From: an uncultured Clostridia bacterium
GTDB lineage: Bacteria > Bacillota > Clostridia > Oscillospirales > Ruminococcaceae
Reading direction: 5' to 3'
Assembly (NCBI GenBank): GCA_947625615.1
Contig: CANQPB010000013.1
Span: 1-60,605 of the forward strand
DNA length: 60,605 nt
Shown here piece by piece: positions 6,561-26,139 of the stretch (the first letter of the stretch is position 1; the number at the start of each line of letters is the position of its first letter). The notes beneath the pieces were generated by a model. The model did no database searches. It was not told the origin of the DNA and saw only the letters and a list, made by a program, of their open reading frames with translations. The translations under genes and the position numbers were made by a program.

Positions 6561-6589
6561 TTGACACGGGCTTTACACTTTGCTATAAT
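6561..6589 (+). promoter_or_regulatory. Promoter of the 20-kb transporter cluster
   Basis: Perfect TTGACA (6561-6566), 17-nt spacer, perfect TATAAT (6584-6589). The leader is about 160 nt. It contains a hairpin, AAGCAAATA at 6635-6643 pairing with TATTTGCTT at 6669-6677, with a small inner stem. No other equally strong promoter was seen before 26 kb. Confidence 0.85.
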
Positions 6590-6754
6590 AATAGCACAAG
6601 AAAAGCGATTCGCAATCGAATATTTTTGGATATAAAGCAAATATAGACTTCACCTTTTGTGAAAGCTGTATTTGCTTAAAGTCGTTTTGGTAGATTATAG
6701 GGTCAAATTGTGCATGATGCACAAAAGCCGCCCTGCGCGCTTTATGGAGGAACA

Positions 6755-7432
6755 ATGGCAGAACTTTTAACGGCAACAAACATAACCCGCGATTTCGTCA
6801 TCGGCGACGGTTCGGTAGTGCACGCTCTCAAGGGCGTGAACATTCAGGTCGCCGAGGGCAAGCTCACCATTTTAAAGGGACGCTCGGGCTCGGGTAAAAC
6901 AACACTTATCAACATGCTCGGCGCACTTGACCGCCCGACAACCGGCGAGGTCATCTTCGACGGGCAGGATATAACAAAACTCAGCGATTTAAAGCGCGAT
7001 GAGATCCGCCGCTACCAGATGGCGTTCGTCTTCCAGAGCGTCGCCTTAATGAGCTCGATGACCGCCTACGAAAACGTGGATTTCGGCTTAAGGCTGGCGG
7101 GATTCCCGCTTGAAAAGCGGCAGGAGCGCGTTACAAAGTGCCTTGAGGAGGTCGGCCTCGCGAAGAGAATGCATCACCGCCCCGGCGAGCTTTCGGGCGG
7201 CGAGCAGCAAAGGGTCGCGATAGCGAGGGCGCTCGCCCACGAGCCGAAGATAATCTTCGCCGACGAGCCCACCGCCGAGCTCGATTCCGGCACCAGCCAC
7301 CACATCGTCGAGCTTTTTAAAACGCTTGTCCTCGACGAGCACATGACGATAGTAATGACAACGCACGACGTCAGCCTTCTTGAGATCGCGGACAGGGTGT
7401 ATACGCTTGAGGACGGTGAGATTGTTGAGTAA
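6755..7432 (+). CDS. ABC transporter ATPase, MacB/LolD type
   Basis: A 225-residue ATP-binding subunit of the MacB/LolD/FtsE type, which works with FtsX-like permeases rather than sugar importers. Visible motifs are Walker A GRSGSGKTT, Q-loop VFQS, signature LSGGEQQR, Walker B IIFADEPTAELD and switch TTHD. TGGAGGAACA just upstream decides the ATG at 6755. The open frame extends 45 nt further upstream without a ribosome site. It is the first gene of the long cluster and overlaps the next gene by several codons. Its likely partners are the adaptor and FtsX-type permease at 22.2-26.1 kb. Confidence 0.92.
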   Translation: MAELLTATNITRDFVIGDGSVVHALKGVNIQVAEGKLTILKGRSGSGKTTLINMLGALDRPTTGEVIFDGQDITKLSDLKRDEIRRYQMAFVFQSVALMSSMTAYENVDFGLRLAGFPLEKRQERVTKCLEEVGLAKRMHHRPGELSGGEQQRVAIARALAHEPKIIFADEPTAELDSGTSHHIVELFKTLVLDEHMTIVMTTHDVSLLEIADRVYTLEDGEIVE

Positions 7433-8384
7433 AAAGAAGCAGAAAAAGCTTGAACACGAACAGGAACTTATCGCCGAAAGCGAATACGCAATAGAGTGCG
7501 AAAACCTTGTTAAGATCTATAAGACCGACCAGATAGAGGTCGTGGCGCTGCAGGGGCTCGATTTACAGGTGAAAAAAGGCGAGCTCGTCGCAATCGTCGG
7601 CACCTCGGGAAGCGGCAAATCCACGCTTCTCAATATGCTCGGCGGCCTCGACAAGCCCTCGGCCGGCAGCCTCACGGTGAACGGAAGGAATCTTCTGAAA
7701 TTCACCGAAGAGGACTACATGATCTACAAGCGGAACACCGTCGGGTTTGTCTGGCAGAACAACGCAAGAAACCTCGTGCCCTACCTCACGGCCGTGCAGA
7801 ACGTCGAGCTGCCGATGCTTTTGCAGGGCCAGAAAAAGCGCCGCGAAAAAGCTCTTGAGCTTTTGGACGCCGTAGGGCTTTCAAACAGAATAAATTCCCG
7901 GCTCGACCAGATGTCGGGCGGCGAGCAGCAGAGGGTCGCGATAGCGATTTCGCTCGCCAACGATCCCGCGATACTTTTGGCCGACGAGCCCACAGGCTCG
8001 GTAGACACGAAAACCTCAGATCAGCTTCTCGGGGTATTCAAGGACATCAACCGCACGCGCGGCGTCACGGTGGTAATAGTCACCCACGACCTGCGCCTTG
8101 CCAAACAGATAGACAGAGTTGTCTCAATCCGCGACGGACGCACCTCGAGCGAGATCATCAAAAAATCTCACGCGGAGATAATGCGGGAATCGTCGGGCTG
8201 GGACACCGGCGGAGAGGAAGAAGCCGCCGAAGAGGTCTCGGAGGAGCTTGTAGTTCTCGACAGAACCGGGCGGCTGCAGATCCCGAAGGACTATCTTGAG
8301 GCCCTTGAGATCAAGGGAGGGTCGAAGGTCAAGGCAGATCTCGACCTTGAAAACGAGCGCATCTATATCCACAAGGCTCAATAA
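7416..8384 (+). CDS. ABC ATPase fused to a C-terminal AbrB-like domain
   Basis: A second MacB/LolD-type ATPase. Walker A GTSGSGKST, Q-loop WQNN, signature MSGGEQQR and Walker B ILLADEPTGSVD are all present. After the ATPase (about residue 245) comes an acidic linker, and residues 278-322 read LDRTGRLQIPKDYLEALEI followed by GGSKV. This resembles the swapped-hairpin AbrB/SpoVT fold, normally found in DNA-binding transition-state regulators and antitoxins. The start is uncertain: GTG 7416, TTG 7422 or TTG 7425, all overlapping the stop of the upstream ATPase, so translation is coupled. The extension could bind DNA, dimerise the ATPase or contact a partner; none of these is shown. Confidence 0.88.
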   Translation: MRLLSKKKQKKLEHEQELIAESEYAIECENLVKIYKTDQIEVVALQGLDLQVKKGELVAIVGTSGSGKSTLLNMLGGLDKPSAGSLTVNGRNLLKFTEEDYMIYKRNTVGFVWQNNARNLVPYLTAVQNVELPMLLQGQKKRREKALELLDAVGLSNRINSRLDQMSGGEQQRVAIAISLANDPAILLADEPTGSVDTKTSDQLLGVFKDINRTRGVTVVIVTHDLRLAKQIDRVVSIRDGRTSSEIIKKSHAEIMRESSGWDTGGEEEAAEEVSEELVVLDRTGRLQIPKDYLEALEIKGGSKVKADLDLENERIYIHKAQ

Positions 8385-8448
8385 ATTTCTTTATAACCCC
8401 AAACGGAGAAAATATATCATTCAAAATAAGATGAAAGGTGGATTCACA

Positions 8449-11367
8449 GTGAAAGACAAAATGTTCAGGCGTCTGATATCGCTTGTTTTGGTGTTAGTGA
8501 TGACAGTGCCGACATTGGCTTGCGTTTTCGCCGACGACAGCGCCGCCGAGCCCGAGGCCCCGGAAGAGGTCAGAGAGACATCGGCACAGTCGCTTGACGA
8601 CGAGAACAGAGCCCGCACCTACAGCACTTACTACGACAAGCATGCAGGCGACCCGCGGCCCAATGAAGAGGCGGTTATAAATGCCGTCGACTACTTAAGC
8701 GCCTCGGACGACGCCGAAGCCCGCATAGATACCCTTGAGGGCGTAGACGCCCTTGTATGGGAGGGCGCGAGCGGCGAAGTCTCGTTTGACGTAGACATTC
8801 CCAAGGACGGCGTTTACGCCGTCAAGATGAGCTATTACGCCCTTTCAGGCTCGGCAAACAGCATTGAATTTGCCCTGCTTATCGACGGCGAAGCTCCCTT
8901 TGCCTCGGCAGAGCAGATCTCCCTTCCGAAGATCTGGGTAAGCTCCGAAAAGTCGTTTGAATACGACGACGCCGGCGTGCGCAGCTTCCGCCGCGACGTT
9001 CACGGCAACCAGATCCGCCCGACCCTTGAGGAATCGCTGGGCTGGCAGGAGGCCTTCCTTAAAGACTCGGACGGCCTGTTCAACGGCGCCCTCGGCTTCT
9101 ATGTAACAGCCGGCAAGCACACGATAACTCTTCGTTCGGACAAGGCGAGATTCGCAATCTCGACCATAACCTTCACCCAGGAGGACGCCATTCAGCCGGC
9201 CGCCAAACTCGACAACGTCACCACCGACGAATCGAAGGCCGCTTCCTCGAAGGATATCTTCGTCTCGATTGAAGGCGAAGATCCCACCTCTGCTTCCGAT
9301 ATCACCCTTTACCCCACTTATGACCGCGCCACCTACCTCACTTCCCCCTCCGACCCGACAAAGATGATCTACAACACCATCGGCAAGGAAAACTGGAAGA
9401 CCTCCGGCCAGTATATAAGCTGGGATTTCACCATGCCTGCGGCAGGCTGGGTGAAAATAGGCATTCGCGCTAAGCAGGATCAGATGCGCGGACTTTATTC
9501 GAACAGAACCCTCTACATAGACGGCAAGGTGCCCTGCGAAGAGGCCGAGCAGATCAAGTTCTACTACTCGACCACCTGGGACTGCGTCGTTCCCTCCGAC
9601 GCCGAGGGCAAGACCCTTTACTTCTACCTCGACGCCGGCGAGCATAACATCATGCTCGAAGCCATGCCGGGCGAGATCGGCGGCATTATGAGACAGCTTG
9701 ACGACGTCGTCTACTATCTCAACAGCTACTATCGCCAGATTCTCCAGATAACCGGCCCTTCCCCCGACGAATACAACACCTACATGATCCAGAACCAGAT
9801 CGAGGGCATTCTTGAGGACTTCCAGTCCTACGCCGATACCTTAAGAGACATCAAGGGCGAGATAGAGACCCTCGCCGGCACCTCCGGCACCGAGGCCGTT
9901 TCGCTCGAGACCATGGCTAAACTCCTCGACAGGCTTGTCGACAAGCCGGACGAGATCCCGGGAAGCTTGGGACAGATCAAGGATAACATCTCCTCGCTCT
10001 CCCAGTGGATGGCCGACTACCGTTCGCAGGCCCTTGAGATCGACGTCATCGAGATCGCCTCGGCCGATAAGGAATTCAGCCCCATCAAGGAAAACTTCTT
10101 CAAGCAGCTTTCCTTCAGCTTCCGTTCCTTCTTAGGCTCCTTCTTCGAGGACTACAACGTCCTTTCCGAGGACAACAAGGCCGCCCTCAACGTCTGGGTA
10201 TCCTTAGGACGCGACCAGGCTCAGATAGTCAAGGAGCTCGTCGACTCCTACTTCGTTGAGGACACCGGCATTCCGATAAACATCAACCTCGTTCAGGGCG
10301 GTATACTTGAATCCACCCTCGCGGGCAAGGGCCCTGACGTAGTTCTCTTCGTCGGCGGCGATCTCCCCATTCAGCTGGCCGCCCGTGACTGCCTCGTCGA
10401 TATCTCGCAGTTCCCCGACTACCAGGAGGTAATCAAGAGATTCGCCCCCAACGTCATGACGCTTTACACCTATCAGAACGGCGTCTACGGACTGCCTATC
10501 TCCCAGAACTTCTCGATGATGTTCTGCCGCAACGACGTTCTGGCCGGCTTCGGCTTTGACAAGGGTCCCGACACCTGGACTGAGCTTATCGACATGCTGC
10601 CTACACTTCAGCGCAGCTACATGGGCGTAGGCTTCAACTTCGACGTCTACGGCACGTTCATGGTTCAGCGCGGCCTCGGCTACTACAACGAGAACAAGAC
10701 CAAGACCATATTCGACCAGCAGGAAGCCGTTGAGGCGTTTGAGATGTGGTGCAAGTTCTACTCGACCTACAGCTTCGAGCAGACCTTCGACCAGTTCACA
10801 CGTTTCCGTTCCGGCGAATATCCGATAGTCATCACCGGCTACACCTTCTACAACCAGCTTTACATGGCCGCCCCCGAAATCCGCGGACTCTGGCAGTTCG
10901 ACGCCATTCCCGGCACCGAGGAGGCCGACGGCACCGTCAACCATTCGACAACCTCGTCTTCCGCCGGCGGAATAATCTTCTCCAAGCTTAACGAAAAGCA
11001 GCGCGCCGACGCCTGGGAGCTTATCAAGTGGTTCACCAGCGCCGAGATCCAGTCGGAATACGGCCGTTCGATAGAAGCCCTGTTAGGCCCTCTCGGACGC
11101 TTTGAAACCGCCAACCGCGAAGCCCTCGGACAGCTCGCCTGGAACCAGACCGAGCTCGAAAAGATCCGCACGCAGATGGACAACACCGTTGATATAGATA
11201 TCATTCCGGCAACTTACATCGTTACCAGAAATATCACCAACGCTTTCAGAGAAACCGTAAACCAGGCAACCAACCCGCGCGATACTCTCGTCTGGTATAA
11301 CAGAGATATCAACGACGAGATCATCAGAAAATATGAGGAACTCGGCATCGAAGTTCCGCAAGATTAA
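8449..11367 (+). CDS. Giant extracellular solute-binding protein
   Basis: A 972-residue exported protein, about twice the usual size of a sugar ABC binding protein. AAAGGTGG at 8434-8441 supports the GTG at 8449. A signal peptide runs to about residue 27 (PTLACVFA; the Cys is only a poor lipobox). Residues about 80-245 and 268-425 are two beta-sandwich-like regions that look like carbohydrate-binding modules. Residues about 440-520 are helical. Residues about 560-960 are a MalE-type binding domain (GPDVVLFVGGDLPIQLAA region, then NFSMMFCRNDVL and the ITGYTFYNQL region). Two permease genes follow at once. A glycan-docking front end on the binding protein is inferred; the substrate is unknown. 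Confidence 0.88.
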   Translation: MKDKMFRRLISLVLVLVMTVPTLACVFADDSAAEPEAPEEVRETSAQSLDDENRARTYSTYYDKHAGDPRPNEEAVINAVDYLSASDDAEARIDTLEGVDALVWEGASGEVSFDVDIPKDGVYAVKMSYYALSGSANSIEFALLIDGEAPFASAEQISLPKIWVSSEKSFEYDDAGVRSFRRDVHGNQIRPTLEESLGWQEAFLKDSDGLFNGALGFYVTAGKHTITLRSDKARFAISTITFTQEDAIQPAAKLDNVTTDESKAASSKDIFVSIEGEDPTSASDITLYPTYDRATYLTSPSDPTKMIYNTIGKENWKTSGQYISWDFTMPAAGWVKIGIRAKQDQMRGLYSNRTLYIDGKVPCEEAEQIKFYYSTTWDCVVPSDAEGKTLYFYLDAGEHNIMLEAMPGEIGGIMRQLDDVVYYLNSYYRQILQITGPSPDEYNTYMIQNQIEGILEDFQSYADTLRDIKGEIETLAGTSGTEAVSLETMAKLLDRLVDKPDEIPGSLGQIKDNISSLSQWMADYRSQALEIDVIEIASADKEFSPIKENFFKQLSFSFRSFLGSFFEDYNVLSEDNKAALNVWVSLGRDQAQIVKELVDSYFVEDTGIPININLVQGGILESTLAGKGPDVVLFVGGDLPIQLAARDCLVDISQFPDYQEVIKRFAPNVMTLYTYQNGVYGLPISQNFSMMFCRNDVLAGFGFDKGPDTWTELIDMLPTLQRSYMGVGFNFDVYGTFMVQRGLGYYNENKTKTIFDQQEAVEAFEMWCKFYSTYSFEQTFDQFTRFRSGEYPIVITGYTFYNQLYMAAPEIRGLWQFDAIPGTEEADGTVNHSTTSSSAGGIIFSKLNEKQRADAWELIKWFTSAEIQSEYGRSIEALLGPLGRFETANREALGQLAWNQTELEKIRTQMDNTVDIDIIPATYIVTRNITNAFRETVNQATNPRDTLVWYNRDINDEIIRKYEELGIEVPQD

Positions 11368-11384
11368 AGGAGGGAGGAATAAAA

Positions 11385-12338: not shown

Positions 12339-12352
12339 AGGAGGGGAACATA

Positions 12353-13372: not shown

Positions 13373-15043
13373 GTGAATAGTATGAAATGCAAAAAGATAT
13401 TCAGTATACTGCTCGTCGCAATAATGGCGGTAGGAATAATGACAGCTACCGTCAGCGCGGTCGACCCGTATACTACCTACAACTACGACGCATGGTACAA
13501 CGCCGTGCCGTCTCAGGCGGGATATGAGGTCATAGACACCTACAACGGCGTGTCCATGAAGCTCAGCCAGCTTTCGGATCCCGAGAGCGAGTTCTTCATC
13601 AGCGAGAACGAGCCCGCAACGCTTTCCGATTCCAAGGACTTCTTTGTTACCAAAAAGGGCGAGTTCTACATCGCCGACACCGGCAACAACAGAATCATCA
13701 AGACAGACATCAACTTCAATCTTCTTGCCTGCTACAAGACATTCCCGGGCAGCACCTCGAAGCACGTCGTCGTCGATGAAAACGGCAACGAGGTAGAGGT
13801 CGACGCAGACGAGCTGAAATCGCCCTACGGCGTTTTCGTGGACGACAACGACGTCATCTACATAGCCGACCGCGACAACCAGCGCATCGTCAAATGTGTT
13901 GAGGAGACCAAGACCTCGGCGAGGATCCTTCAGGAATACTACCGCCCCGAGACCCCTCTTTACGATTCCGTCTCCTTCTACTGCACCAAGGTATTGGTTG
14001 ACGCCGCCGGCAACGTATACGTCATCTGCCCGGCCATCAACAAGGGCGCTATAATGTTCTCCGATTCCGGCTCCTTCGTAGGATTCTACGGAGCCAACCG
14101 CGTTGAGGTAACCGCTGAGGTTATCCGCAACAAGCTCTGGAGAAAGATAGCCTCCGAGGAGCAGATAGCCTCGCTGACAAAATCCACCCCTGTCGAATAT
14201 GCAAACTTCGACATCGACGAGGAGGGCTTCATCTATACCGTCACCGAGGTTGCCAACGCCACCACCGACGCCGTTAAGAAGATGAACCCCGCGGGCTACA
14301 ACATTCTGGAGAGAACCGCCGACAACAACCAGTTCGGCGACCAGGTTTCGGCCACCTATAACGGCACCACCTACGCCACCCGTCTTACCGACATCTCGGT
14401 CGACGACGAGGGATTCATCGACATTCTCGACTACACCACCGGCCGCGTCTTCCAGTATGACGAGCGTTGCAACCAGCTTCTCATCTGCGGCTTCGACCAG
14501 GAGGAGCAGCGCGGCGGCTTCAACAACCCGAACGCCATAGAGACCTTCGACAAGAAGATCTATGTCCTTGACGGACGCAACAACGACATCACCGTCTTCG
14601 GCCTCACCGAATTCGGACAGTACGTCCACGACGCCATTCAGCTCCACAACCGCGGCTTCTACGATCAGGCCTATGACCTCTGGCAGGAAGTTTTAAAGCG
14701 CGACGGCGGCTTCTACATGGCTCTCGTCGGCACCGCCAAGGCCCTCTACAATCAGGACGACTACGAAGGCGCCATGAAATATTCCAAGCTCAGCTTCTAC
14801 GCCGACGAATATGACAAGGCCTTCGAGGCGGCAAGACAGGAAACCCTGCGCGACAACTTCACCCTCTATGTCGTAATAATCCTCATTCTTGTAATTCTCT
14901 GGTTCGTGATAAAGATCCTGCAGAAGAAGGGAAAAATTCCTAAGAAACTTATCGCCACCGGCTGCGGAAAGGTTGTAAACGCATGCAAGAACGCGGCGAT
15001 ATCGGTTGTCGATAAAATAAAGAAAGGGGGCAAGGGTAAATGA
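13373..15043 (+). CDS. Secreted NHL beta-propeller / TPR protein with C-terminal membrane helix
   Basis: About 556 residues. AAAGGTGAT at 13354-13362 favours the GTG at 13373; ATG 13382 is the alternative. A signal peptide ends near TATVSA. Residues about 70-440 hold NHL-type repeats (YIADTGNNRIIK, YIADRDNQRIVK, VYVICPAINKGAIMF, IYVLDGRNNDITVF), which form a six-bladed-type propeller. A TPR-like helical pair follows (AIQLHNRGFYDQAYDLWQEV region). One membrane helix near residues 499-520 and a basic cytoplasmic tail end the protein. The propeller therefore faces outside, tethered to the membrane. Its place between permease and Yip1 genes, with overlapping stop/start, suggests a scaffold or sensor of the transporter. 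That role is inference. Confidence 0.82.
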   Translation: MNSMKCKKIFSILLVAIMAVGIMTATVSAVDPYTTYNYDAWYNAVPSQAGYEVIDTYNGVSMKLSQLSDPESEFFISENEPATLSDSKDFFVTKKGEFYIADTGNNRIIKTDINFNLLACYKTFPGSTSKHVVVDENGNEVEVDADELKSPYGVFVDDNDVIYIADRDNQRIVKCVEETKTSARILQEYYRPETPLYDSVSFYCTKVLVDAAGNVYVICPAINKGAIMFSDSGSFVGFYGANRVEVTAEVIRNKLWRKIASEEQIASLTKSTPVEYANFDIDEEGFIYTVTEVANATTDAVKKMNPAGYNILERTADNNQFGDQVSATYNGTTYATRLTDISVDDEGFIDILDYTTGRVFQYDERCNQLLICGFDQEEQRGGFNNPNAIETFDKKIYVLDGRNNDITVFGLTEFGQYVHDAIQLHNRGFYDQAYDLWQEVLKRDGGFYMALVGTAKALYNQDDYEGAMKYSKLSFYADEYDKAFEAARQETLRDNFTLYVVIILILVILWFVIKILQKKGKIPKKLIATGCGKVVNACKNAAISVVDKIKKGGKGK

Positions 15044-15675
15044 TCTATGATATGAAACCGTGGCAATGGGTAAAACACGTTATTTTCCACCCCACCGAAG
15101 GCTTTGAGGATATGAGATGGAAAAAGGCCGGTTCTTTGAAGATCTCCTTCTTCATCGTGTTCCTGCTCTTTGCCTCGCAGGTATTCTCCTCAAGATACGG
15201 AGGCTTTGCCTATAACACAAGGGCCTACTCCGATGTCTTCAACATCATGCCGATCCTTGTTCAGTCCGTTGCATACTACGCCACATGGGTAGTCTCCAAC
15301 TGGAGTATATGCACCCTGTTCGACGGCGAGGGCAACATGCGCCGCGTCGCCATCTACACAGCGTATTCGCTGGTGCCCTACATCATCGGCAATACCCTTT
15401 CGACCGCCCTCTCCTATTTCCTCACCCTTGACGAGTCGATCTGGTATAACGCGATAAGCATGATCGGCCTCGGCTGGTCGGTGGTAATGATGATCTTCGC
15501 CATGAAGGCCTGCCACCAATACAGCTTCACGATGACCTTCGTCAGCATGATCTCAACGGTCGCCGGCATGGTGCTTATCCTCTGCCTGCTCGCGCTTGTA
15601 ATGTCGCTCTTCCAGCAGGTATACGTATTCTTCGCAACAATCTACACGGAAATCCTTTACAGATTCAGAAGCTGA
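15040..15675 (+). CDS. Yip1-family membrane protein
   Basis: A 211-residue polytopic protein with about five membrane helices and the usual YIP1 layout: a short cytoplasmic start (WQWVKHVIFHPTEGFEDMR), then a helical bundle. Its ATG overlaps the stop of the NHL/TPR gene (ATGA), so the two are translationally coupled. Bacterial Yip1 proteins have no settled function, and many sit beside transport or secretion genes. Here it probably forms a membrane complex with the NHL/TPR and DUF5696-type proteins. Confidence 0.8.
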   Translation: MIYDMKPWQWVKHVIFHPTEGFEDMRWKKAGSLKISFFIVFLLFASQVFSSRYGGFAYNTRAYSDVFNIMPILVQSVAYYATWVVSNWSICTLFDGEGNMRRVAIYTAYSLVPYIIGNTLSTALSYFLTLDESIWYNAISMIGLGWSVVMMIFAMKACHQYSFTMTFVSMISTVAGMVLILCLLALVMSLFQQVYVFFATIYTEILYRFRS

Positions 15676-15697: not shown

Positions 15698-18256
15698 ATG
15701 AAAAATTTATTTCTGAAATTACTGGCTTGCCTGCTTGTCGCGGCAATGCTGATAACATCTTCCGCCGTCTGCCTGTTTGCAGAGCCTAACGGCGAAGAAG
15801 CCGCAGACGGAGACTTAGTCGTCGAGCCGGTAGACATCGGCCCCGACGAGGGCGAGCCGACGGATCCCGGCGCACTTGAGGGCGACGAAGCCCCCGCGGC
15901 CGAGGGAGACGAGGCTGCTCCCGCCGAAGACGAAGAGGCCGCCCCCGCTGAGGGCGAGGAAGCCCCTGCCGAGGGCGAGGAAGCCCCTGCCGAGGGCGAG
16001 GAAGCTGCTCCCGCCGAAGGCGAAGAAGAAGCCGACGAAGCCGTTGCAATGATCACCGACGAGGAGGCTCTTGCGGCCTGCCAGAAGGTTGCGGAAAACG
16101 ACAAGTTCGAGCTTTACTGCGACTTCGGCGTTGAGGACGCTGAGCTTGAAAGAATAGCTCTCGTCGTCAAGGAAACCGGCTTTATCTGGTGGTCTAACCC
16201 CATCAACGCGCTTGCAGACACCTCGACAAACAAATCGAGCCTCAGACAGAACCGTCTTTCAAACATCGCCTATAAATACGGCAACGCCACCGACCTCATC
16301 GCTTCCTCCGCGTTCCTTTATTCCTACAGAGAATCCACCTCGCGCGGAAACTGCAAGTATGAGATCAAGGACAACGAGATCGTCATCAGGTACACCCTAA
16401 GAACCGCCTCCTGCATGGTTCCGGTGCATGTGGCGCTTGACGACGAGGGCCTTTACACCTATATCGAGACCTCCGAGATAAAGGAGAACAACGGATATAG
16501 GGAAGAGGTCAAGAACGACCAGGACGCCGAGGACAGAGACACCATAGTTCTCACCGAGGTCGCGATGTTCCCCTACATGGGCGCGGCTCCGGCTGACGAA
16601 GAGGGCTATATGCTCATACCCGACGGCTCCGGCGCAATCATCAACCTCAACAACGGCAAGGGCAACTACTCCGATTACAGCCAGCCGCTCTACGGCCGCG
16701 ACATCACCACCGTCAAGGAAGTCGAGCCCGACATGGTCGAGCAGGCCTACCTGCCGGTAATGGCAATGGTCAGACAGAACAACGGCCTTGTCATGATAGC
16801 CGCCGACGGCGACACCTTTGCCAACGTAAACGCAAACGTCTCCTATTCCAAGAACGAAAACTCCTGGTATAACGACTGCTACTTCTCCTTCACGCTCCGC
16901 TCGACCGACAACTACTACATGACCGGCGACTCTTCGGCCATCATGGTCTTTGAAAAGGGCGACGGCAAGATACTTGTCCCGAGAGTAGGCGTTAAGTTCA
17001 TTCCCGTCACCGGCGACGGCGACACCGTCACCACCGGCGAAATTGCGGACATCTACCGCAACTACCTCATTGAGGAAAAGGGCCTTGCCAAGGCCGAAGG
17101 CGCCACCGAGCCCGCACTTTACATCGATATGTACGGCGGCACCCTCAAGTCCAAGTCTATCCTCGGTATCCCGATCAAGCTCAAGACCGCCTACACCTCC
17201 TTCAAGCAGGCCTCCGACATAGTTTCGCAGCTCAACGAGCTCGGCGTCGGCAACATGGTCGTCAACTACAACGACTGGTCTGAGGATTCAATGTCCTCCA
17301 AGATCGATACCGGCGACAGCGTGGCCTCCTGCCTGGGTGGCAAGAGCCAGTACAAGAAGATGCTCAAGCAGTTCGCCGATCTCGGCGTCGACTACTACGC
17401 AAGCGTCTCCGGCGTCACATTCAAATCAAACGGCAACGGCTTCTGGACGCTGTTCAACACCGCTTACCGCGTTTCAAAGTCATATTCGAGACAGTACACC
17501 TACAACATCGCGTACGGCACGCCCGACACCGGCGTCGCCCCGGCCCTTATGAGCCCGCGCTCTATAGAAAAGCTCTCGAAGAAGGTTTCTAAGAATCTCG
17601 GCAAATATGAGCAGGGCGCCGGCCTCGGAATCATCTCCAACACGCTGTGGAGCGATTTCTCGAACAAATATCGCACCAACCGCTACACCACCGCTCAGTA
17701 CGTCGTAGACTACTACAAGGCGGTCAAGGAATCGAACGGCAAGGTCATAGCCGACGCGCCGAACGCCTACCTGCTGCCCTACGTTACAAGGATCAACAAC
17801 CTGACGCTTCAGTCCAGCCAGTTCAAGCTCACCGACTACGATATCCCGTTCTATCAGATGGTAATGCACGGATATGTCGACTACGCCTCCGAGGCCATAA
17901 ACGGCACCCCCGACACCACCATCGCCGTTCTCAAGGCTATAGCCGCCGGCTCGAACATTCACTTCGACTTCATGTATGAAGAGGCAAGCGAGCTTGTTAA
18001 TACCGATTACGTAAACAAGTTCTACTGCTGCTACGAAGGCTGGCTCGATGAGGCTGCAAAGGCCTATCAGCTCGTGAGCGAGATCCTTACGCCCGCCAAG
18101 GACGCCACCATCTCCTCCTACGATGTTGACGGCAAGGTTATCACCACCACCTATTCGAACGGCTACGAGACCGTTGTAGATCTCGGGTCGGGCGACATCA
18201 AGGCCGGCGGAAAAACCTATAACTACACAGATTACGTTAAAGGAGGTTCGGACTAA
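15698..18256 (+). CDS. Large secreted protein, DUF5696-like
   Basis: An 852-residue exported protein. The signal peptide (residues 1-26) ends at LFA. Residues about 28-115 are an acidic, Pro/Ala/Glu low-complexity spacer with internal repeats, probably a flexible stalk across the wall. The rest is a large folded body with motifs such as YMLIPDGSGAIINLNNGKG, YGRDITT and a late TIM-barrel-like stretch. I recall DUF5696 proteins of this size beside sugar permeases in Firmicutes; the name is from memory, unverified. The start has only a weak ribosome site (GAAAGTGAG). The stop overlaps the next ATG (TAATG). The barrel-like half suggests glycan binding or hydrolysis, but I see no assignable active site. 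Confidence 0.72.
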   Translation: MKNLFLKLLACLLVAAMLITSSAVCLFAEPNGEEAADGDLVVEPVDIGPDEGEPTDPGALEGDEAPAAEGDEAAPAEDEEAAPAEGEEAPAEGEEAPAEGEEAAPAEGEEEADEAVAMITDEEALAACQKVAENDKFELYCDFGVEDAELERIALVVKETGFIWWSNPINALADTSTNKSSLRQNRLSNIAYKYGNATDLIASSAFLYSYRESTSRGNCKYEIKDNEIVIRYTLRTASCMVPVHVALDDEGLYTYIETSEIKENNGYREEVKNDQDAEDRDTIVLTEVAMFPYMGAAPADEEGYMLIPDGSGAIINLNNGKGNYSDYSQPLYGRDITTVKEVEPDMVEQAYLPVMAMVRQNNGLVMIAADGDTFANVNANVSYSKNENSWYNDCYFSFTLRSTDNYYMTGDSSAIMVFEKGDGKILVPRVGVKFIPVTGDGDTVTTGEIADIYRNYLIEEKGLAKAEGATEPALYIDMYGGTLKSKSILGIPIKLKTAYTSFKQASDIVSQLNELGVGNMVVNYNDWSEDSMSSKIDTGDSVASCLGGKSQYKKMLKQFADLGVDYYASVSGVTFKSNGNGFWTLFNTAYRVSKSYSRQYTYNIAYGTPDTGVAPALMSPRSIEKLSKKVSKNLGKYEQGAGLGIISNTLWSDFSNKYRTNRYTTAQYVVDYYKAVKESNGKVIADAPNAYLLPYVTRINNLTLQSSQFKLTDYDIPFYQMVMHGYVDYASEAINGTPDTTIAVLKAIAAGSNIHFDFMYEEASELVNTDYVNKFYCCYEGWLDEAAKAYQLVSEILTPAKDATISSYDVDGKVITTTYSNGYETVVDLGSGDIKAGGKTYNYTDYVKGGSD
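15945..16030 (+). repeat. Tandem 21-bp coding repeat
   Basis: Near-identical 21-bp units (GAAGCCCCTGCCGAGGGCGAG type) encode EAPAEGE repeats in the acidic stalk of the DUF5696-like protein. Length variation between strains would be in frame. Confidence 0.8.
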
Positions 18257-20405: not shown

Positions 20406-20440
20406 TTTCACCGGCGGACGGATAAAATCCGAAAACGGTA

Positions 20441-20464
20441 TGCCGCCTGCAAACGCGGGCGGCA
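20441..20464 (+). terminator. Hairpin after the second permease pair
   Basis: Seven-pair stem TGCCGCC/GGCGGCA with a ten-base loop, followed only by CACTTTCG. It may be a partial terminator or an mRNA-processing hairpin that lowers downstream expression. Confidence 0.4.
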
Positions 20465-20529
20465 CACTTTCGTGAATAAGAAATTTTGCGAACTTTATTA
20501 AAAAATTCATTCATTAACGGAGCGATGAC

Positions 20530-22122
20530 ATGAGAAGAGTAACGGCTCTTTTTATCTGCGGGCTGATGCTTTTGTCCGCCTGTTCGCAGGCCGAAGAGCA
20601 GCCGTCCGGGACAACGGGCGGAGGGATCTCGCTTTTCACCGAAGACCCCTCGCCGTCTGACCTGCCCGAGACTTCCGAAGACGCGTTTGGCGTTTCCGCC
20701 GAAACGGCGCCGCAGACAGTGCCGGAAATTTCGGACGCCGTGATAGAGCCGCAGACCTTTGCGCAGACAGAGGCCGAAATTCTCATCGAGCCTGAGGAGC
20801 AGGGAAATCTGCCCGAGAGCGCGTCGGTCACCGATTCCCGCGAGGGATATTCGGGTTCGGGCTGCGTAAGCGGCCTGAGGCCCGAGGACACCCTTGTCGC
20901 CGAGGCAGACCTGCCCGCTTCGCAGCATTATAACATCACCATCCGTGCGGCGGCCGATTCGCCGGTGAGCGGGGTTTTTGCCATAAACGGCATTCCCTGC
21001 GGCAGCTTTTCGCTGTCCGGCGACGGCTTTGAAGCTTTAAGGTTTGACAACATCTTCCTGTCGGCCGGAAAATGCCTTTTGGGGATAACCGCCCTCAGCG
21101 GCGCCGCCGACATCGACTGCCTGCTGATAGAAAATTCCGGCTACGTCCCCGATTTCTCCCTCCCCGGCGGGGGAGCGCTCTGCACGCCGAATCCCTCGGT
21201 GGGCGCGGAAGCGCTTTACGGCTACATCACCGGGCTTTTCGGCAAGAAAATTTTAAGCGGCCAGCAGGTCTCGCAGGGGAGCGACGCCGAGCTTGAAGCG
21301 GTTTACGGCGCTTCGGGCAGATACCCCGCCATACGCTTCGGCGAGCTTATGGATTACTCCGCAGGAGCGGACAGCGGCGACATCGAGCTTGCTGTCGGCT
21401 GGGCAAAGTCGGGCGGAATTGTCGGATATGTCTGGAACTGGACGATGAACGGCTCGGTATATGCCGACAGAACCGGCTTCGATCTTTCAAAAGCCGTCAC
21501 CGATCTCGACATAGTCGCGATGAACGGCAGCGCCCTCACCCTAAGATATGAATCGGGCGACATAACCGTCGAGACGCTCGCCGTTATCGACGGGATCGAC
21601 CTTGCGGCCGAGGCGTTAAAGCGCCTCAAAGAGGAGGATATCCCGGTGCTGTTCCGGCCGCTGCCCGAGGCCTCGGGCGGACAGTTTTGGTGGTCGAAGA
21701 GCGTCGAGAGCTATAAGTGGCTCTATAAACTCATTTATGAAAGAATGACCGTCTACCACGGGCTGGACAATCTGATCTGGGTCTGGAACGGCCAGAGCCC
21801 CGAATGGTACGTCGGGGATAACATGTGCGACATCGTCTCGCTCGACGTATACCTTGACGGCGGCACCGCGCCATACCCGAGCTGTCTGAACTTTTTGCTC
21901 GCCGCCCGCGAGATAACGCCCTCGAAGCCGGTGGCGCTCAGCGAAATTTCCCAGCTTCCCTCGCCTGACAGCCTCGCCTTGGACAGCGCCGTCTGGAGCT
22001 ATATATCCACCTGGACGGGCGAATACTCGCCCGAGGGCACGGGCACCGACCCGAGCATCTGGGACAGATTTTACAACAATACAATGGTCATCACAAAGGA
22101 TAAAATAGAATACAATCGGTAA
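20530..22122 (+). CDS. GH26-type glycoside hydrolase lipoprotein
   Basis: A 530-residue lipoprotein (lipobox LLSAC, Cys18). A Ser/Glu/Pro-rich linker runs to about residue 100. Residues about 100-215 look like a beta-sandwich carbohydrate-binding module. Residues about 225-510 are a GH26-like barrel: KKILSGQQ, YPAIRFGELMDYSAG and the GIVGYVWNW region. The acid/base is Glu380 in VLFRPLPEASGGQFWW and the nucleophile Glu472 in PVALSEIS. GH26 enzymes are mostly beta-mannanases and beta-1,3-xylanases. The His normally just before the acid/base (RPLHE) is Pro here, so specificity or activity may differ. Its place behind two permease pairs suggests it trims the imported glycan at the cell surface. 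Confidence 0.85.
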   Translation: MRRVTALFICGLMLLSACSQAEEQPSGTTGGGISLFTEDPSPSDLPETSEDAFGVSAETAPQTVPEISDAVIEPQTFAQTEAEILIEPEEQGNLPESASVTDSREGYSGSGCVSGLRPEDTLVAEADLPASQHYNITIRAAADSPVSGVFAINGIPCGSFSLSGDGFEALRFDNIFLSAGKCLLGITALSGAADIDCLLIENSGYVPDFSLPGGGALCTPNPSVGAEALYGYITGLFGKKILSGQQVSQGSDAELEAVYGASGRYPAIRFGELMDYSAGADSGDIELAVGWAKSGGIVGYVWNWTMNGSVYADRTGFDLSKAVTDLDIVAMNGSALTLRYESGDITVETLAVIDGIDLAAEALKRLKEEDIPVLFRPLPEASGGQFWWSKSVESYKWLYKLIYERMTVYHGLDNLIWVWNGQSPEWYVGDNMCDIVSLDVYLDGGTAPYPSCLNFLLAAREITPSKPVALSEISQLPSPDSLALDSAVWSYISTWTGEYSPEGTGTDPSIWDRFYNNTMVITKDKIEYNR

Positions 22123-22228
22123 TATATCCTAAGGATATTACTTGCCGTTTATATAATTTTAGCATTCATCGCTGATCTGTCCTGCGGGGCGGTCACGGAG
22201 AAATAAAGACCCTTTCAGGAGGAACAAT

Positions 22229-23278
22229 ATGAAACCGTCAAAGATCATACCATTCGCCCTCGCGGCGCTGACCGCAATGTCGGCCCTTTCGGGCTGTTAT
22301 TTCCTGCCGGAGGAGGAAGAGCTTTTAGAGGCGCCCGTCGTCAAGGCGAGCGAGGTGTCCTATACCACCACCACGGCCGAACTTAAGGACATCACCAAGC
22401 AGGTGCTTACCCCCGGCAACATAGCTTCCGGCACCGAATATAACGCCAGGTTCTCGGATATTGGCGGCAACATCAAGGCCGTTTACGTTTCGGCGGGGGA
22501 CACCGTCGAGGAGGGCCAGCTTCTTGCGGAATACGAGACCTACGAGCTTGACAAGCAGATTGAGCGCGGCGAGCTTGAGCTTCTGCGCGAGCAGCTTGAA
22601 TACGAGATAGCCGTTGAAAAGCACGAATCCGAGACCGTTAAGCAAAAGGAGCTTTTGGACGTTCAGCTTATGCAGAACGATCTCGACAAGCTTTACGCCG
22701 ACAAGGAGGCCGCAAAGCTTTACTCCGAGGTTGCGGGCACGGTTTCCTTTGTTAAAACCTGCTCGCCCGGCGACTGGGTAAATGCCGGCGAGACCATAGC
22801 CACCGTCATCGACATAACCGATCTCTATATCAAGATCGACCCCAACAACGACGTCGACCAGTTCATGATAGGCCGCCCGATAACCATTCGCTATGAGGGC
22901 GAATATTACGACGGCACCATTGTCCGCAACAAATCCGGCGTTCAGTGGGACGAGGCCGCTCAGGGCGCTCTTGTGGGCTCCGACGGCGAGGAGATTTTGG
23001 GCGAGGAATCCGAGGATATCATCGTCAAGTTCAACGACATTATCCCCGAGAGCTCGGCGGTCGGAAATATTGCCGACACCATACTTGTCCTCGACAAGCG
23101 TGAGAACGTCATAGTCATCTCGGCGAATCTTGTCAAGAAAGTGAACGGCGTCAACTGCGTCTACGTCTTCAAGGACAACGAAAGAGTTCCCGTTAACGTA
23201 TCGCTCGGGCTTCAGAGCGGTTCGCTCGTTGAAATAACCTCCGGGCTCGAGCCGGGAGATGAAGTCATCATAAGATAA
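22229..23278 (+). CDS. MacA/HlyD-type periplasmic adaptor lipoprotein
   Basis: A 349-residue membrane-fusion-type protein. Lipobox LSGC is near residue 19. A lipoyl-type half (EYNARFSDIGGNIKAVYVSAG), a short coiled coil (YELDKQIERGELELLREQ and onward), the second lipoyl half and beta-barrel domains follow in the usual order. CAGGAGGAACA precedes the ATG. In Firmicutes these work with an FtsX-like permease and a MacB-type ATPase. The permease follows 41 nt downstream, but the ATPases are 14 kb upstream. Confidence 0.9.
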   Translation: MKPSKIIPFALAALTAMSALSGCYFLPEEEELLEAPVVKASEVSYTTTTAELKDITKQVLTPGNIASGTEYNARFSDIGGNIKAVYVSAGDTVEEGQLLAEYETYELDKQIERGELELLREQLEYEIAVEKHESETVKQKELLDVQLMQNDLDKLYADKEAAKLYSEVAGTVSFVKTCSPGDWVNAGETIATVIDITDLYIKIDPNNDVDQFMIGRPITIRYEGEYYDGTIVRNKSGVQWDEAAQGALVGSDGEEILGEESEDIIVKFNDIIPESSAVGNIADTILVLDKRENVIVISANLVKKVNGVNCVYVFKDNERVPVNVSLGLQSGSLVEITSGLEPGDEVIIR

Positions 23279-23319
23279 GACAGCGCGTCTGCGGATTTTA
23301 ACAGCATGGAGGATACGAG

Positions 23320-26139
23320 ATGTTAACACTGCTTTTCCGAAAGATGCGAAATACCAAATGGATGGTTATCTGTCTTCTTGTCGGATTCATCATGGCAACG
23401 GCCATGACAAGTACGATCCCGATATATATGCACGCCTCGCTGCAGCGTATGCTGATAAAGGATATGCAGGCATATCAGGAGAATACCGGGGTATATCCCG
23501 GCGTTTACGCCGTCTCCAAGACCCTTGTGAGCGGCACGAGCGCAAAAAATCAGCGCGCAAACGTAAACAATGTTTATGCGCGCGCCGCAAACCGCTTCAA
23601 CGACCTTTTTGTCCCCTATGAGACATATAAGGCGTTCACCTCCGATTCCTACCTCTACGTCACCAATATCGAGACCGACGGAGATCCCTCGATGGTGAAA
23701 TTGGGCGGCATGACGGATATCGGGGATCACATCAAGATAGTCAGGGGCAGAATGTATGAGAAGGAAAAGACTGCCGACGGCGTATATGAGGTAATATGCA
23801 CCGAAAAGGCCCTGCAGCTCACCCAGCTCACCACCGACACCGTCTACGAGGTCAAGAACATCTTAGACCGCGTGACCGAGGACACCCTGAAAATAAAGAT
23901 AGTCGGCGTTTTTGAGACCGCCACCGACAACGACACCTACTGGTCGGAGGGGCTTTCAAACTACGACAACACCTTCTTTACCGATTTCATCACCCTCACC
24001 GATGAAATAATCTTCACAGGGATAGTCAACCTGAACAGCGTTGAATGCCGCTTCATCATCGACTATCAGCACATGGACATGAACGTCATCGAGCATGTCC
24101 GCAACCAGTTTGCCTCCCAGCTTGAGCAGTATAAGGAAGAGGCGACCACCTTCGAAGTCCCCGCGCAGGAGGTTTTAGAGGAATACGCCACAAAGGCGGC
24201 CTCGCTGAAATACATACTTCTCATGCTCGACATACCGGTCATACTAATGCTGATATTCTACCTGTTCATGGTGTCTCAGCTCAACATAGAATCGGAGCGC
24301 AACGAGATAGCGATGCTCAAATCGCGCGGAGCCTCTGCCTGGCAGATACTTCGCATTTACGCCTACGAGACCCTTATCCTCGGCGCGGTTTCGGCGCTGG
24401 TGGGCCCGTTTGTAGGCCTCGGGCTCTGCAACATCTTGGGCGTTTCAAACGGCTTCTTGGAATTCGTAAACAGGCCGGCTTTGCACGCAAAGCTTTCTTT
24501 GACGGCGTTCGGATATGCCGTGGCGGCGGTGGCGGTGTTCTTTGTCACCACCCTCGTGCCGATAATTCCCGCCTCGCGCGTGTCGATAGTTGCGCACAAG
24601 CAGTCGAAGGCCCACGAGCAGAAAAAGCCCTTCTGGCAGCGCTCCTTCCTCGACGTCATCTGCGTTGTCCTGCCGGTGGTGTGGCTCTGGTGGTATAACA
24701 GAACCAACGACAACCTCATCGCCCAGGGAATCGTCGACACCTCTGCAAATATGAATCCGCTGATGTTCGCGGCCTCCACTGTGTTCATTCTCGGCGCGGC
24801 GCTTCTCTGCGTAAGAATTTACCCATACTTCATCAGGCTTGTATACTTCATCGGCCGCAAGCATTGGTCGCCGGCGGCGTATATCTCCCTCAACAACATC
24901 GGCCGCTCGTCTACCGGCCGCGAGAAGTTCATCATGATCTTCCTTATCCTCACGGTTGCCCTCGGAATATTCTCGGCGAACACCGCCCGGGCGATAAACC
25001 GCAACACCGAGGAGAGAATACGCTATAATCTCGGCGCCGACGCGGTCATCGAAGAGGCTTGGAAGACGAGCCGCGTAAAGGTCTACGACGAGGAGGCCGG
25101 CGAGGAGACGTCGACCACCCAGTATACCGAGCCGGAATTCGAGCGCTATTCGGCGCTTCCCGGCGTAAAGCTCGCCACCCCCGTCTTCAAGCGTGACATG
25201 GTTCAGATGAGATATAACGACTCCAACCAGACCGACTGCATCGCCATGGCGATAATTCCCGATCAGTTTGCCCAGGTGGCCTGGTTCCGCTCAGACCTCC
25301 TGCCGGTGCACATCAACTACTACATCAACGCGCTCAGCGAATGCCAGGACGGCGCGATAATCTCCCGCTCCTACGCCGACAAGAAGGGCGTGAACCTCGG
25401 CGACGTAGTTGAGGTAAAGTGGGCGAGAAACAACTGGTTCGAGACCACCGTCGTCGCGATAGTCGATTACTGGCCGAGCATGAACCCCTATAACAAGAAT
25501 TCCCAGGGCGACTATCAGGACTTCATCGTCCTCAACTACGACTACGTCAGCATCATGACGATAACCGAGCCCTATCAGGTCTGGCTCTCGCTTGAGGACG
25601 ACGCCGACATCGGCGAGTTCTACCAGGCGGCCTCCGACAGCGGCATCGTCGCCACCAGAATGGACGTCGCATCGCAGCTCATCATAAGCTCGAAGACCGA
25701 CGCCGTCTTACAGGGCGTAAACGGCGCGCTTACCCTCGGCTTCATCACGATAATGGCTATGTGCTTCATCGGCTTCCTGATTTACTGGATCCTCTCCATC
25801 AAGGGCAGAACGCTCCAGTTCGGTATCCTCAGAGCCATGGGTATGTCCTTCAGAGAGATCATCTCTATGATAGTTTACGAGCAGCTTCTGGTTTCCGGCG
25901 TTTCGATATTCCTGTCGATAATCATCGGCGGAATCGCCTCCGACATCTTCGTGCCGCTCTTCCAGGTGCTCTACAATGTCACCGACCAGGTGCCGCCGTT
26001 CAGGGTTGTTTCCCAGCGCAGCGACTACATAAAGCTTTACATCATCGTTCTTGTGATGCTTTTGGTAGGATTTATCGTCATAGCGCGGCTTATCAAGCAG
26101 ATAAACATCAACAAGGCCCTGAAACTCGGCGAGGATTAA
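23320..26139 (+). CDS. FtsX/MacB-type ABC permease
   Basis: A 939-residue permease: one N-terminal helix, a large external domain, three helices (residues about 300-420), further central helices, a second external domain, and three C-terminal helices (LGFITIMAMCFIGFLIYWIL to VMLLVGFIVIARLI). This duplicated layout is typical of large FtsX-family permeases in Firmicutes. It carries no ATPase. The two ATPases that open the cluster are the natural partners. Such systems usually move peptides or lipids or signal mechanically rather than import sugars. Confidence 0.92.
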   Translation: MLTLLFRKMRNTKWMVICLLVGFIMATAMTSTIPIYMHASLQRMLIKDMQAYQENTGVYPGVYAVSKTLVSGTSAKNQRANVNNVYARAANRFNDLFVPYETYKAFTSDSYLYVTNIETDGDPSMVKLGGMTDIGDHIKIVRGRMYEKEKTADGVYEVICTEKALQLTQLTTDTVYEVKNILDRVTEDTLKIKIVGVFETATDNDTYWSEGLSNYDNTFFTDFITLTDEIIFTGIVNLNSVECRFIIDYQHMDMNVIEHVRNQFASQLEQYKEEATTFEVPAQEVLEEYATKAASLKYILLMLDIPVILMLIFYLFMVSQLNIESERNEIAMLKSRGASAWQILRIYAYETLILGAVSALVGPFVGLGLCNILGVSNGFLEFVNRPALHAKLSLTAFGYAVAAVAVFFVTTLVPIIPASRVSIVAHKQSKAHEQKKPFWQRSFLDVICVVLPVVWLWWYNRTNDNLIAQGIVDTSANMNPLMFAASTVFILGAALLCVRIYPYFIRLVYFIGRKHWSPAAYISLNNIGRSSTGREKFIMIFLILTVALGIFSANTARAINRNTEERIRYNLGADAVIEEAWKTSRVKVYDEEAGEETSTTQYTEPEFERYSALPGVKLATPVFKRDMVQMRYNDSNQTDCIAMAIIPDQFAQVAWFRSDLLPVHINYYINALSECQDGAIISRSYADKKGVNLGDVVEVKWARNNWFETTVVAIVDYWPSMNPYNKNSQGDYQDFIVLNYDYVSIMTITEPYQVWLSLEDDADIGEFYQAASDSGIVATRMDVASQLIISSKTDAVLQGVNGALTLGFITIMAMCFIGFLIYWILSIKGRTLQFGILRAMGMSFREIISMIVYEQLLVSGVSIFLSIIIGGIASDIFVPLFQVLYNVTDQVPPFRVVSQRSDYIKLYIIVLVMLLVGFIVIARLIKQININKALKLGED

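Follow-up and report, generated by a model that had tools for sequence, protein, structure and literature searches.

Gene row of an uncultured Clostridia bacterium joins a candidate oligosaccharide-importer cassette to the two halves of a type VII ABC unit

The window, a 60,605-nt stretch of DNA from an uncultured Clostridia bacterium, carries a row of 13 co-directional genes on its + strand (6755-26139), downstream of a promoter that matches the consensus at 12 of 12 positions (Table 1). Both the promoter and the row had been read from the letters in a preliminary description, and the gene types named there were recovered as well: Pfam gave two ABC_tran domains, SBP, BPD_transp, NHL/TPR_3, Yip1, DUF5696, GH26, HlyD and FtsX, and the permeases p1F, p1G and p2F were recognised through NCBIfam models and their EAA loops. 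No regulator gene was found among the 13 genes in the Pfam scan.

Table 1 Features of the gene row and its leader (positions in the window)
Feature	Position	Strand	Basis
σ70 promoter TTGACA-N17-TATAAT, TG before -10	6561..6589	+	12/12 consensus match, kept in relatives
Leader inverted repeat AAGCAAATA ... TATTTGCTT, arms 6635-6643 / 6669-6677	6635..6677	+	candidate RNA hairpin or operator
Palindrome TTGTGCA-TGA-TGCACAA upstream of atp1	6708..6724	+	candidate operator
atp1, LolD/FtsE/MacB-type ATPase	6755..7432	+	Pfam, NCBIfam; start picked by RBS
atp2, MacB/LolD-type ATPase, C-terminal AbrB/MazE-like tail	7425..8384	+	Pfam, NCBIfam
SBP: N-terminal beta-rich part, helical linker, C-terminal oligosaccharide-type binding protein	8449..11367	+	Pfam, Foldseek
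p1F, MalF/UgpA-like permease, intact EAA loop	11385..12338	+	NCBIfam, alignment
p1G, MalG/UgpE-like permease, intact EAA loop	12353..13327	+	Pfam weak, NCBIfam, alignment
NHL-repeat/TPR protein, hydrophobic N-terminus, one C-terminal hydrophobic segment	13358..15043	+	Pfam, hydropathy
Yip1-domain membrane protein	15040..15675	+	Pfam
DUF5696 protein, hydrophobic N-terminus, GH129-like fold	15698..18256	+	Pfam, fold comparison
p2F, MalF-like permease, intact EAA loop	18256..19254	+	Pfam weak, NCBIfam, alignment
p2G, MalG-like permease, intact EAA loop	19269..20405	+	Pfam, NCBIfam, alignment
GH26 glycosidase, putative lipoprotein (LLSAC near N-terminus, read from sequence)	20530..22122	+	Pfam
HlyD/MacA-like adaptor, putative lipoprotein (LSGC near N-terminus, read from sequence)	22229..23278	+	Pfam
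Duplicated FtsX-type permease, 10 hydrophobic segments, two FtsX stretches	23320..26139	+	Pfam, hydropathy

Within the row, atp1/atp2, NHL/Yip1 and DUF5696/p2F overlap by 8, 4 and 1 nt, respectively. The gaps on the head side measure 64 (atp2-SBP), 17 (SBP-p1F), 14 (p1F-p1G) and 30 nt (p1G-NHL), followed by 22 (Yip1-DUF5696), 14 (p2F-p2G), 124 (p2G-GH26), 106 (GH26-HlyD) and 41 nt (HlyD-FtsX). The best promoter-like sites inside the row on the + strand (11177, 18716 and 21044) match at 10 of 12 positions, and the scan gave 17 promoter-like sites where 11.3 are expected and 25 terminator-like sites where 20.9 are expected; a single transcript for all 13 genes is thus possible. The perfect promoter was also present upstream of 21 of 23 ATPase-headed named loci. 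The arms of the leader repeat were near-identical in the relatives L211-L214, and an Rfam search of the leader returned sub-threshold matches throughout.

Eight of the genes form a cassette in the order SBP-F-G-NHL-Yip1-DUF5696-F-G, whose members surround DUF5696 in almost all testable loci from Clostridia and Bacilli. Conservation was counted in 78 named loci and in 63 loci of a genome sample that includes the window, all found through DUF5696 proteins of at least 650 aa. Among the 70 named loci testable upstream, SBP was present in 70, p1F in 68, p1G in 69 and NHL in 70, and the 74 testable downstream contained p2F in 74 and p2G in 73 cases; the corresponding numbers in the genome sample were 59, 59, 57 and 58 of 59 upstream and 61 and 59 of 61 downstream. 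Of 41 loci without a separate Yip1 gene, 38 encode Yip1 as a fusion with NHL. In G336 one of four DUF5696 places was read, and in G369 the contig ends after Yip1 and a 158-aa ORF lies between atp2 and SBP. In the sample of 147 genomes from the window's order, 74 had a DUF5696 match above the cut-off, a count that includes partial matches and of which a part was checked for the cassette. Cultured carriers of the cassette include Ruminococcus albus, Paenibacillus terrigena and P. lautus. The cassette is widespread in gut and soil Firmicutes and apparently undescribed: the name DUF5696 was absent from the literature searched, no description was found there of Yip1 combined with NHL and a sugar ABC transporter, and the titles and abstract openings on YIP1 family proteins with ABC transporter permeases held nothing on it.

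All four permeases are of the MalF/MalG type with the EAA loop of CUT1 importers. Pfam gave no match for p1F and matches under the cut-off for p1G and p2F; in NCBIfam p1F and p1G were nearest to UgpA and UgpE, under the cut-offs as well. The EAA glutamate and glycine were kept in 69 and 68 of 69 rows of p1F and in 76 and 76 of 77 rows of p2F, and the glycine in 70 of 70 rows of p1G and 73 of 75 of p2G. As had been stated previously, the row contains no importer-type ATPase. This absence is ordinary, since the genome encodes elsewhere a stand-alone UgpC/MsmX-type ATPase that scores 474.9 with the NCBIfam UgpC model (cut-off 432), as is the case for Clostridium thermocellum transporter B, for which service by the stand-alone ATPase Clo1313_2554 was tested according to the part of the source consulted (PMC9601137). 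An OB_MalK (UgpC/MsmX-type) ATPase was encoded elsewhere in all 24 cassette genomes searched; its presence in 10 of 14 control genomes marks it as common. The idea that the cassette is the only MalFG-type system of the window's genome found no support, given the further permease sets C8, beside an ATPase of its own, and C52, around which the stretch read showed no ATPase, and because of these sets the stand-alone ATPase is not assignable by exclusion. We infer that it serves the importer of the window. It could be argued that atp1 and atp2 power the importer permeases instead, as the row has no other ATPases and throughout the lineage the pair stays linked to the cassette. However, the pair tracks HlyD-FtsX rather than the cassette, 45 of the 68 named cassettes whose head is readable lack it, and the OB_MalK ATPase was found in every cassette genome searched, which leaves this reading very improbable.

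The SBP is 972 residues long with a large N-terminal part. Pfam identified an oligosaccharide-type SBP_bac_8 match (76.4 bits), and in Foldseek the C-terminal half resembled β-1,2-glucooligosaccharide and maltose binding proteins; the Foldseek entries shown all fell on this half. For the N-terminal part a weak CBM_35 match was obtained (20.7 bits, cut-off 28). Across 40 sequences from Clostridia to Paenibacillus the mean column identity of the SBP was 45 %, and such strong conservation may point to one fixed ligand. The DUF5696 protein, probably exported judging from its sequence, has a GH129-like fold in the fold comparison. Compared with the GH129 glycosidases NagBb and ZgGH129 and the GH101/GH36 group it shares 10-15 % identity, and unlike GH129 glycosidases it travels with an ABC importer. 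No D or E was invariant across the 141 sequences aligned. The best-kept acids are D653 (121/141) and D713 (113/141). Alignment at residue level did not place the known GH129 catalytic Asp, and a broader DUF5696 profile stopped short of the catalytic region of the GH129 entries.

The SBP conservation and the missing invariant acid would both suit a cassette for sensing or recycling some conserved glycan of the envelope, rather than one that feeds the cell on plant glycans, with the NHL propeller and the GH129-fold protein as binding parts and one fixed ligand for the SBP. Against this stand up to 24 plant-glycan-family glycosidases in 71 scanned downstream ORFs and the patchy occurrence of DUF5696 in the order, which is ill-suited to a housekeeping role in the envelope, and we consider an envelope-glycan function unlikely. 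The scan covered 71 of 111 downstream ORFs, leaving out L212-L215 and others, with 25 of 105 families listed; among the matches listed, GH95 and GH10 occurred five times each, GH26 four times, GH30 and GH43 three times each, and GH36 and GH2-mannosidase-like proteins twice each, as raw counts. From such neighbours a plant-type oligosaccharide can be guessed as the substrate.

The four remaining transporter genes constitute a type VII (FtsX-type) ABC unit. The best NCBIfam models for atp1 and atp2 were LolD, DevA, FtsE and MacB, all under their curated cut-offs, and both proteins are ATPases of the LolD/FtsE/MacB type. Regarding atp2, described before as AbrB-fused, the tail itself stood, its motif being kept in the orthologues compared, whereas its match to MazE_antitoxin remained under the Pfam cut-off (19.9 against 24.7 bits). 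The adaptor matched HlyD_D23 and HlyD_3 over the Pfam cut-off and the MacA model with 30.5 bits (cut-off 342). The permease is a 939-residue chain with PF02687 in two stretches (76.4 bits) and 10 hydrophobic segments in a simple hydropathy scan; the model ADOP for duplicated permeases matched it weakly, at 25.7 bits (cut-off 622). In MacAB and YknXYZ the permease is a single FtsX-type chain with four TM segments, a form that the 10-segment protein does not have. The order HlyD-FtsX-atp1-atp2, with the AbrB tail, was contiguous in 12 of 14 loci, and the other two hit the contig edge after atp1; these loci came from genomes outside the window's family, among 25 order genomes with an FtsX orthologue (E < 1e-100, a threshold of our choice). 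Orthologues of the ATPase pair, the adaptor and FtsX were all present in 13 and all absent in 4 of 17 genomes; these were not a random set but had been selected in the light of earlier results, some having and others lacking FtsX or DUF5696. The ATPases and the adaptor-permease pair are therefore partners, as had been proposed.

In the window's family the ATPase pair stood at the head of the cassette in every one of the nine genomes that have both, and in eight of these HlyD-FtsX was located elsewhere. Among family genomes with the cassette but without an FtsX orthologue, five had a readable head, and the pair headed the cassette in none of them (L291-L294 and L296; of the seven with DUF5696 and without FtsX, L295 was contig-cut and G368 unread). 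HlyD-FtsX, together with GH26, was found at the cassette tail in the window and five named relatives (L211-L215), where both halves of the unit consequently flank the cassette. Linked atp2 sequences formed one tree group (1 change, support 99/98) in a tree whose rows were chosen by motif pattern, which dropped the unlinked G123 and G364 and the linked G284 and G345. Of 48 family genomes, nine had both FtsX and DUF5696, two FtsX only, seven DUF5696 only and 30 neither (Fisher p 2.6e-4, relatedness not corrected). In the order sample of 147 the numbers were 11, 14, 64 and 58, with no association: taking both counts as made on the same 147 genomes, 75 genomes had a DUF5696 match and 64 of them no FtsX orthologue, and 25 had an FtsX orthologue and 14 of them no DUF5696. 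Ten of these 14 loci were read; eight were full HlyD-FtsX-ATPase-ATPase operons and two lay at a contig edge. ATPases next to the cassette in G249 and G123 were rejected as linkage cases, as by eye they resemble UvrA/ABC-F and LivF/LivG-type proteins.

The preliminary description had offered either one nested machine or a fixed association of two. An association fixed in one gut lineage stood up to the neighbourhood comparison, a general nested machine did not. A single envelope machine, in which the FtsX unit works on the importer by glycan release or by assembly of SBP and DUF5696 and Yip1 couples the two in a YknW-like manner, would account for the fixed ATPase-cassette linkage, the flanking by both halves and the family counts. 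It could also draw on YknW, a Yip1 protein that modulates YknXYZ assembly in the part of the source consulted (PMC4887032). Further contacts were seen. An FtsX homologue lies directly before SBP at the third locus of G037 and in L252. Five Paenibacillus loci have an ABC exporter after the cassette, with ABC_membrane and ABC_tran domains in the two scanned (L254, L261), accompanied by a DUF1854 gene; the downstream ATPase-like ORFs of 731-743 aa in these loci were rejected as parts of the type VII unit. Because a second kind of exporter stands beside the cassette, we gave the one-machine reading more weight and the two-machine reading less. Nevertheless, the lack of association in the order sample and the membership of Yip1 in the cassette, NHL-fused in genomes without the FtsX unit, render a single machine rather improbable.

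We favour two co-regulated machines, an oligosaccharide importer and a type VII ABC unit under one conserved promoter, and regard this as somewhat probable. A functional link between them may exist, of which the G037 and L252 contacts and the Paenibacillus exporter are hints. As HlyD-FtsX is next to the cassette in the window's clade alone, co-transcription of both halves cannot be needed. Two further genomes count against the two-machine reading: in G123 the ATPase pair and HlyD-FtsX stood apart from each other without the cassette, and of the four FtsX homologues of G037 a single one lies in the four-gene operon. At the cell surface, plant-type oligosaccharides would be captured by the exported SBP, whose front part is CBM-like, and the DUF5696 protein with its GH129 fold might, like the GH26 lipoprotein, bind or trim them outside. 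Import would proceed through the two EAA-containing permease pairs, both powered by the shared UgpC/MsmX-type ATPase, with the NHL-TPR-TM-Yip1 proteins as a putative membrane scaffold. Atp1 and atp2 would drive the duplicated FtsX permease, to which the HlyD adaptor is coupled, and mechanotransmission would then serve to move or release something on the outside. Within the window's family, the importer operon would have gained the ATPase half of the type VII unit as its head, and within the window's clade also the permease half as its tail, tying the expression of both.

Like other CUT1-type importers, such as C. thermocellum transporter B with Clo1313_2554 (PMC9601137, consulted in part), the cassette combines an SBP and EAA permeases without a cluster ATPase. 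It differs in having two complete permease pairs and a 972-residue SBP with an N-terminal beta-rich part, and in the NHL, Yip1 and DUF5696 genes that accompany it in nearly every locus read. The type VII unit resembles YknWXYZ and MacAB-type systems in its LolD/FtsE-type ATPase, FtsX permease and HlyD/MacA-like adaptor. It departs from them by a second, different ATPase, the AbrB-like tail conserved on one of the two, and a single duplicated permease with 10 hydrophobic segments. YknXYZ is partnered by a Yip1 protein (PMC4887032, in the part consulted), whereas Yip1 in the window belongs to the importer cassette. The row also joins transporter and glycosidase, as do the polysaccharide utilisation loci of Gram-positive bacteria. 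These carry both in one row with a regulator gene within the locus, whereas the 13-gene row has no regulator and includes a type VII unit in half or in full.

Tentatively, the cassette may represent a distinct importer class, with an oversized CBM-like SBP, two pores, an NHL/TPR/Yip1 scaffold and a possibly non-catalytic GH129-fold protein, to which exporters were recruited on more than one occasion, as if import and surface release were coupled. Cases of such recruitment would be the type VII unit in Oscillospirales and the ABC_membrane exporter with DUF1854 in Paenibacillus. Four orphan parts, namely DUF5696, NHL/TPR, Yip1 and the second permease pair, gain testable roles from the comparative maps. 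The splitting of a type VII operon and its re-use around an importer, with a strong promoter kept, makes a clear case of lasting operon recombination.

The gene order SBP-F-G-NHL-(Yip1)-DUF5696-F-G, with two MalF/MalG-type permease pairs (p1F/p1G and p2F/p2G) and a large binding protein (SBP), recurred around DUF5696 in both named loci and the genome sample. Maps were drawn of 69 stretches (window included), taken from whole-genome samples of the class, order and family, and of 80 named loci that a genome scan had yielded; block counts were taken around DUF5696 proteins of at least 650 aa. SBP, p1F, p1G and NHL were found in 70, 68, 69 and 70 of the 70 named loci that reach far enough upstream, and p2F and p2G in 74 and 73 of the 74 with downstream ORFs; the corresponding numbers for the genome sample were 59, 59, 57 and 58 (n = 59) and 61 and 59 (n = 61). 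As the loci were found through DUF5696, these counts describe its surroundings and not whether the other cassette genes ever lack DUF5696. Cassette-bearing named loci belonged, among other taxa, to Oscillospiraceae, Ruminococcus albus, Clostridiaceae, Paenibacillus, Cohnella and Lederbergia. The importer cassette stands as an independent unit. Of 41 NHL proteins from loci lacking a separately labelled Yip1 gene, 38 contain the Yip1 domain, versus none of 97 from loci in which Yip1 is separate; this fusion suggests that NHL and Yip1 function together. The papers searched gave neither a mention of DUF5696 by that name nor an account of the gene combination of the cassette; the parts are of known kinds, and their combination is apparently new.

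In the window, the cassette is preceded by a head of two ATPase genes (atp1, atp2) and followed by a tail, GH26-HlyD-FtsX. The 13 co-directional genes and the perfect promoter of the preliminary description were both recovered. Its gene family names were largely borne out by family searches, but p1F had no Pfam match and p1G and p2F stayed under the cut-off. The tail of atp2, described as AbrB-like, also fell under the Pfam cut-off, although the motif recurs in the atp2 orthologues inspected, in linked settings (ATPase pair adjoining the cassette) as well as unlinked ones. Start codons of the listed genes were chosen by ribosome-binding sites.

Features of the window in and around the gene row
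Feature	Position	Strand	Remark
RNase Y gene	2529-4112	+	upstream of the row
Perfect promoter	6561-6589		sigma-70 type, 12/12 match, upstream of the 13-gene row
Leader, promoter to atp1	6600-6754		two inverted repeats: AAGCAAATA/TATTTGCTT and TTGTGCA-N3-TGCACAA
13-gene row	6755-26139	+	atp1 to FtsX
Aldose 1-epimerase gene	26276-27331	-	faces the FtsX gene
GC content	54001-60000		about 0.55 to about 0.40 toward the contig end

The full order was shared by five named relatives (L211-L215; DUF5696 identity 63-79 %), from records whose isolate names suggest rabbit and roe deer; in L211 and L215, GH26 is preceded by an additional ORF or by a gap of about 0.7 kb. A sixth locus, L216 (58 %), had the head and lacked GH26-HlyD-FtsX. 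The TTGTGCA-N3-TGCACAA repeat is conserved in L211-L213 and L216 and degenerate in L214 and L215; many Ruminococcus heads contain half-sites of TGCACAAA or near-palindromes. The leader repeats of the window are a candidate operator or leader RNA.

Among 48 genomes of the family Ruminococcaceae, DUF5696 occurred in 16, an FtsX orthologue in 11 and both in 9. In all nine the ATPase pair stood before SBP, with a 158-aa ORF intervening in G369, and HlyD-FtsX was located away from the cassette in eight. None of the five readable heads among the seven family genomes with DUF5696 and without an FtsX orthologue carried the pair. Perfect promoters preceded 21 of 23 ATPase-headed named cassettes versus 6 of 45 others, with 49 such promoters in 1.56 Mb (both strands) across all named loci, and one stood before the head in each of the eight other family genomes. 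In the atp2 tree (30 linked and 14 unlinked rows) the linked sequences formed one group (1 change, support 99/98), in line with a single origin of the linkage. One ATPase-headed cassette (L241) comes from a record whose title reads Bacteroides sp.; since its atp2 falls among Oscillospiraceae sequences, a binning error is probable. In the order sample (Oscillospirales, n = 147), 11 genomes had both FtsX and DUF5696, 14 FtsX only, 64 DUF5696 only and 58 neither; across this sample the cassette and the type VII ABC unit (HlyD, FtsX, atp1, atp2) are not associated. Of the proposal of one machine or a fixed association of two, the fixed association held in one lineage but not across the order.

The adaptor and FtsX permease had been named as natural partners of the ATPases, and orthologues of the AbrB-tailed ATPase (atp2), the adaptor and the duplicated FtsX permease did co-occur: in 17 hand-chosen genomes all three were present in 13 and none, at orthologue level, in 4 (the weak G342 adaptor match, E 4.1e-10, was counted by its position adjoining FtsX). 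At 14 order-sample loci outside the family, HlyD-FtsX-atp1-atp2 was complete in 12, and two reach the contig edge after atp1; these operons carry one to three HlyD copies. Three successive HlyD-type genes before FtsX were seen in L301, L302, L304, L305, L306 and L310, from other families. G037 holds atp1-HlyD-FtsX-atp2 at one place and three further FtsX homologues: one has HlyD alone beside it, a second follows ATPases of a different type, and the third precedes a cassette SBP. In G123, the ATPase pair and HlyD-FtsX lie at different places and the cassette is absent. The importer cassette and the type VII unit differ in distribution and in partners, and are more likely two machines than one.

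As claimed, no MalK-type importer ATPase is among the row genes. The EAA loop, which docks an ATPase, is kept in all four window permeases and nearly all relatives. An OB_MalK ATPase was found in 24 of 24 cassette genomes searched (exactly one in 22); the family is common, though, with matches in 10 of 14 controls as well. The one in the window's genome lies on a separate contig and exceeds the NCBIfam UgpC cut-off. In two relatives of the same genus, L033 (G142) and L120 (G284), this MsmX/UgpC-type ATPase gene lies about 4 kb upstream of the head of the cassette, on the same strand. A comparable arrangement, in which an importer cluster lacks its own ATPase and a stand-alone gene at another site encodes one, has been tested in Clostridium thermocellum (PMC9601137); here too the row lacks a MalK-type ATPase and a candidate is encoded elsewhere. 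In structure model comparison the C-terminal half of SBP resembles oligosaccharide-binding proteins; the N-terminal part is rich in beta structure and matches CBM_35 weakly. At least 16 of the 70 named and 14 of the 59 sample loci (L249, L258, L263, L265, L270, L273, L276, L279, L281, L284-L286 and others) have a second SBP gene of ordinary size, no more than two ORFs ahead of the large one or downstream of p2G; the window's row lacks one. These are lower bounds because Pfam also detects SBP domains in neighbours of L254, L261, L277 and L289 that carried no label. The p2F/p2G pair may therefore once have been served by a separate binding protein, as though a pair of importers had been joined. 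Glycosidase matches listed among 71 scanned downstream ORFs were GH95 (5), GH10 (5), GH26 (4), GH30 (3), GH43 (3), GH36 (2) and GH2-mannosidase-like (2), all counted in cassette neighbourhoods; plant hemicellulose-type oligosaccharides are a candidate cargo.

A functional link between importer cassette and type VII unit is possible. It is hinted at by the stable ATPase-cassette linkage and by FtsX relatives adjoining the cassette at two further places (the third G037 locus and L252). A different ABC exporter (731-743 aa; the two scanned, those of L254 and L261, combine ABC_membrane and ABC_tran) follows p2G in five Paenibacillus loci (L254, L255, L256, L261, L264); next comes a gene of roughly 165 aa, identified as DUF1854 in L254. 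Moreover, assembly of YknXYZ, a related Bacillus unit, is modulated by YknW, which is a Yip1 protein (PMC4887032). With two machines, the ATPase pair would have been placed before the cassette once in the lineage, as judged from the tree, and then kept, a strong promoter going with it; in the window's clade the other half, HlyD-FtsX, would have been added at the tail. Co-regulation would account for the linkage without a joint complex.
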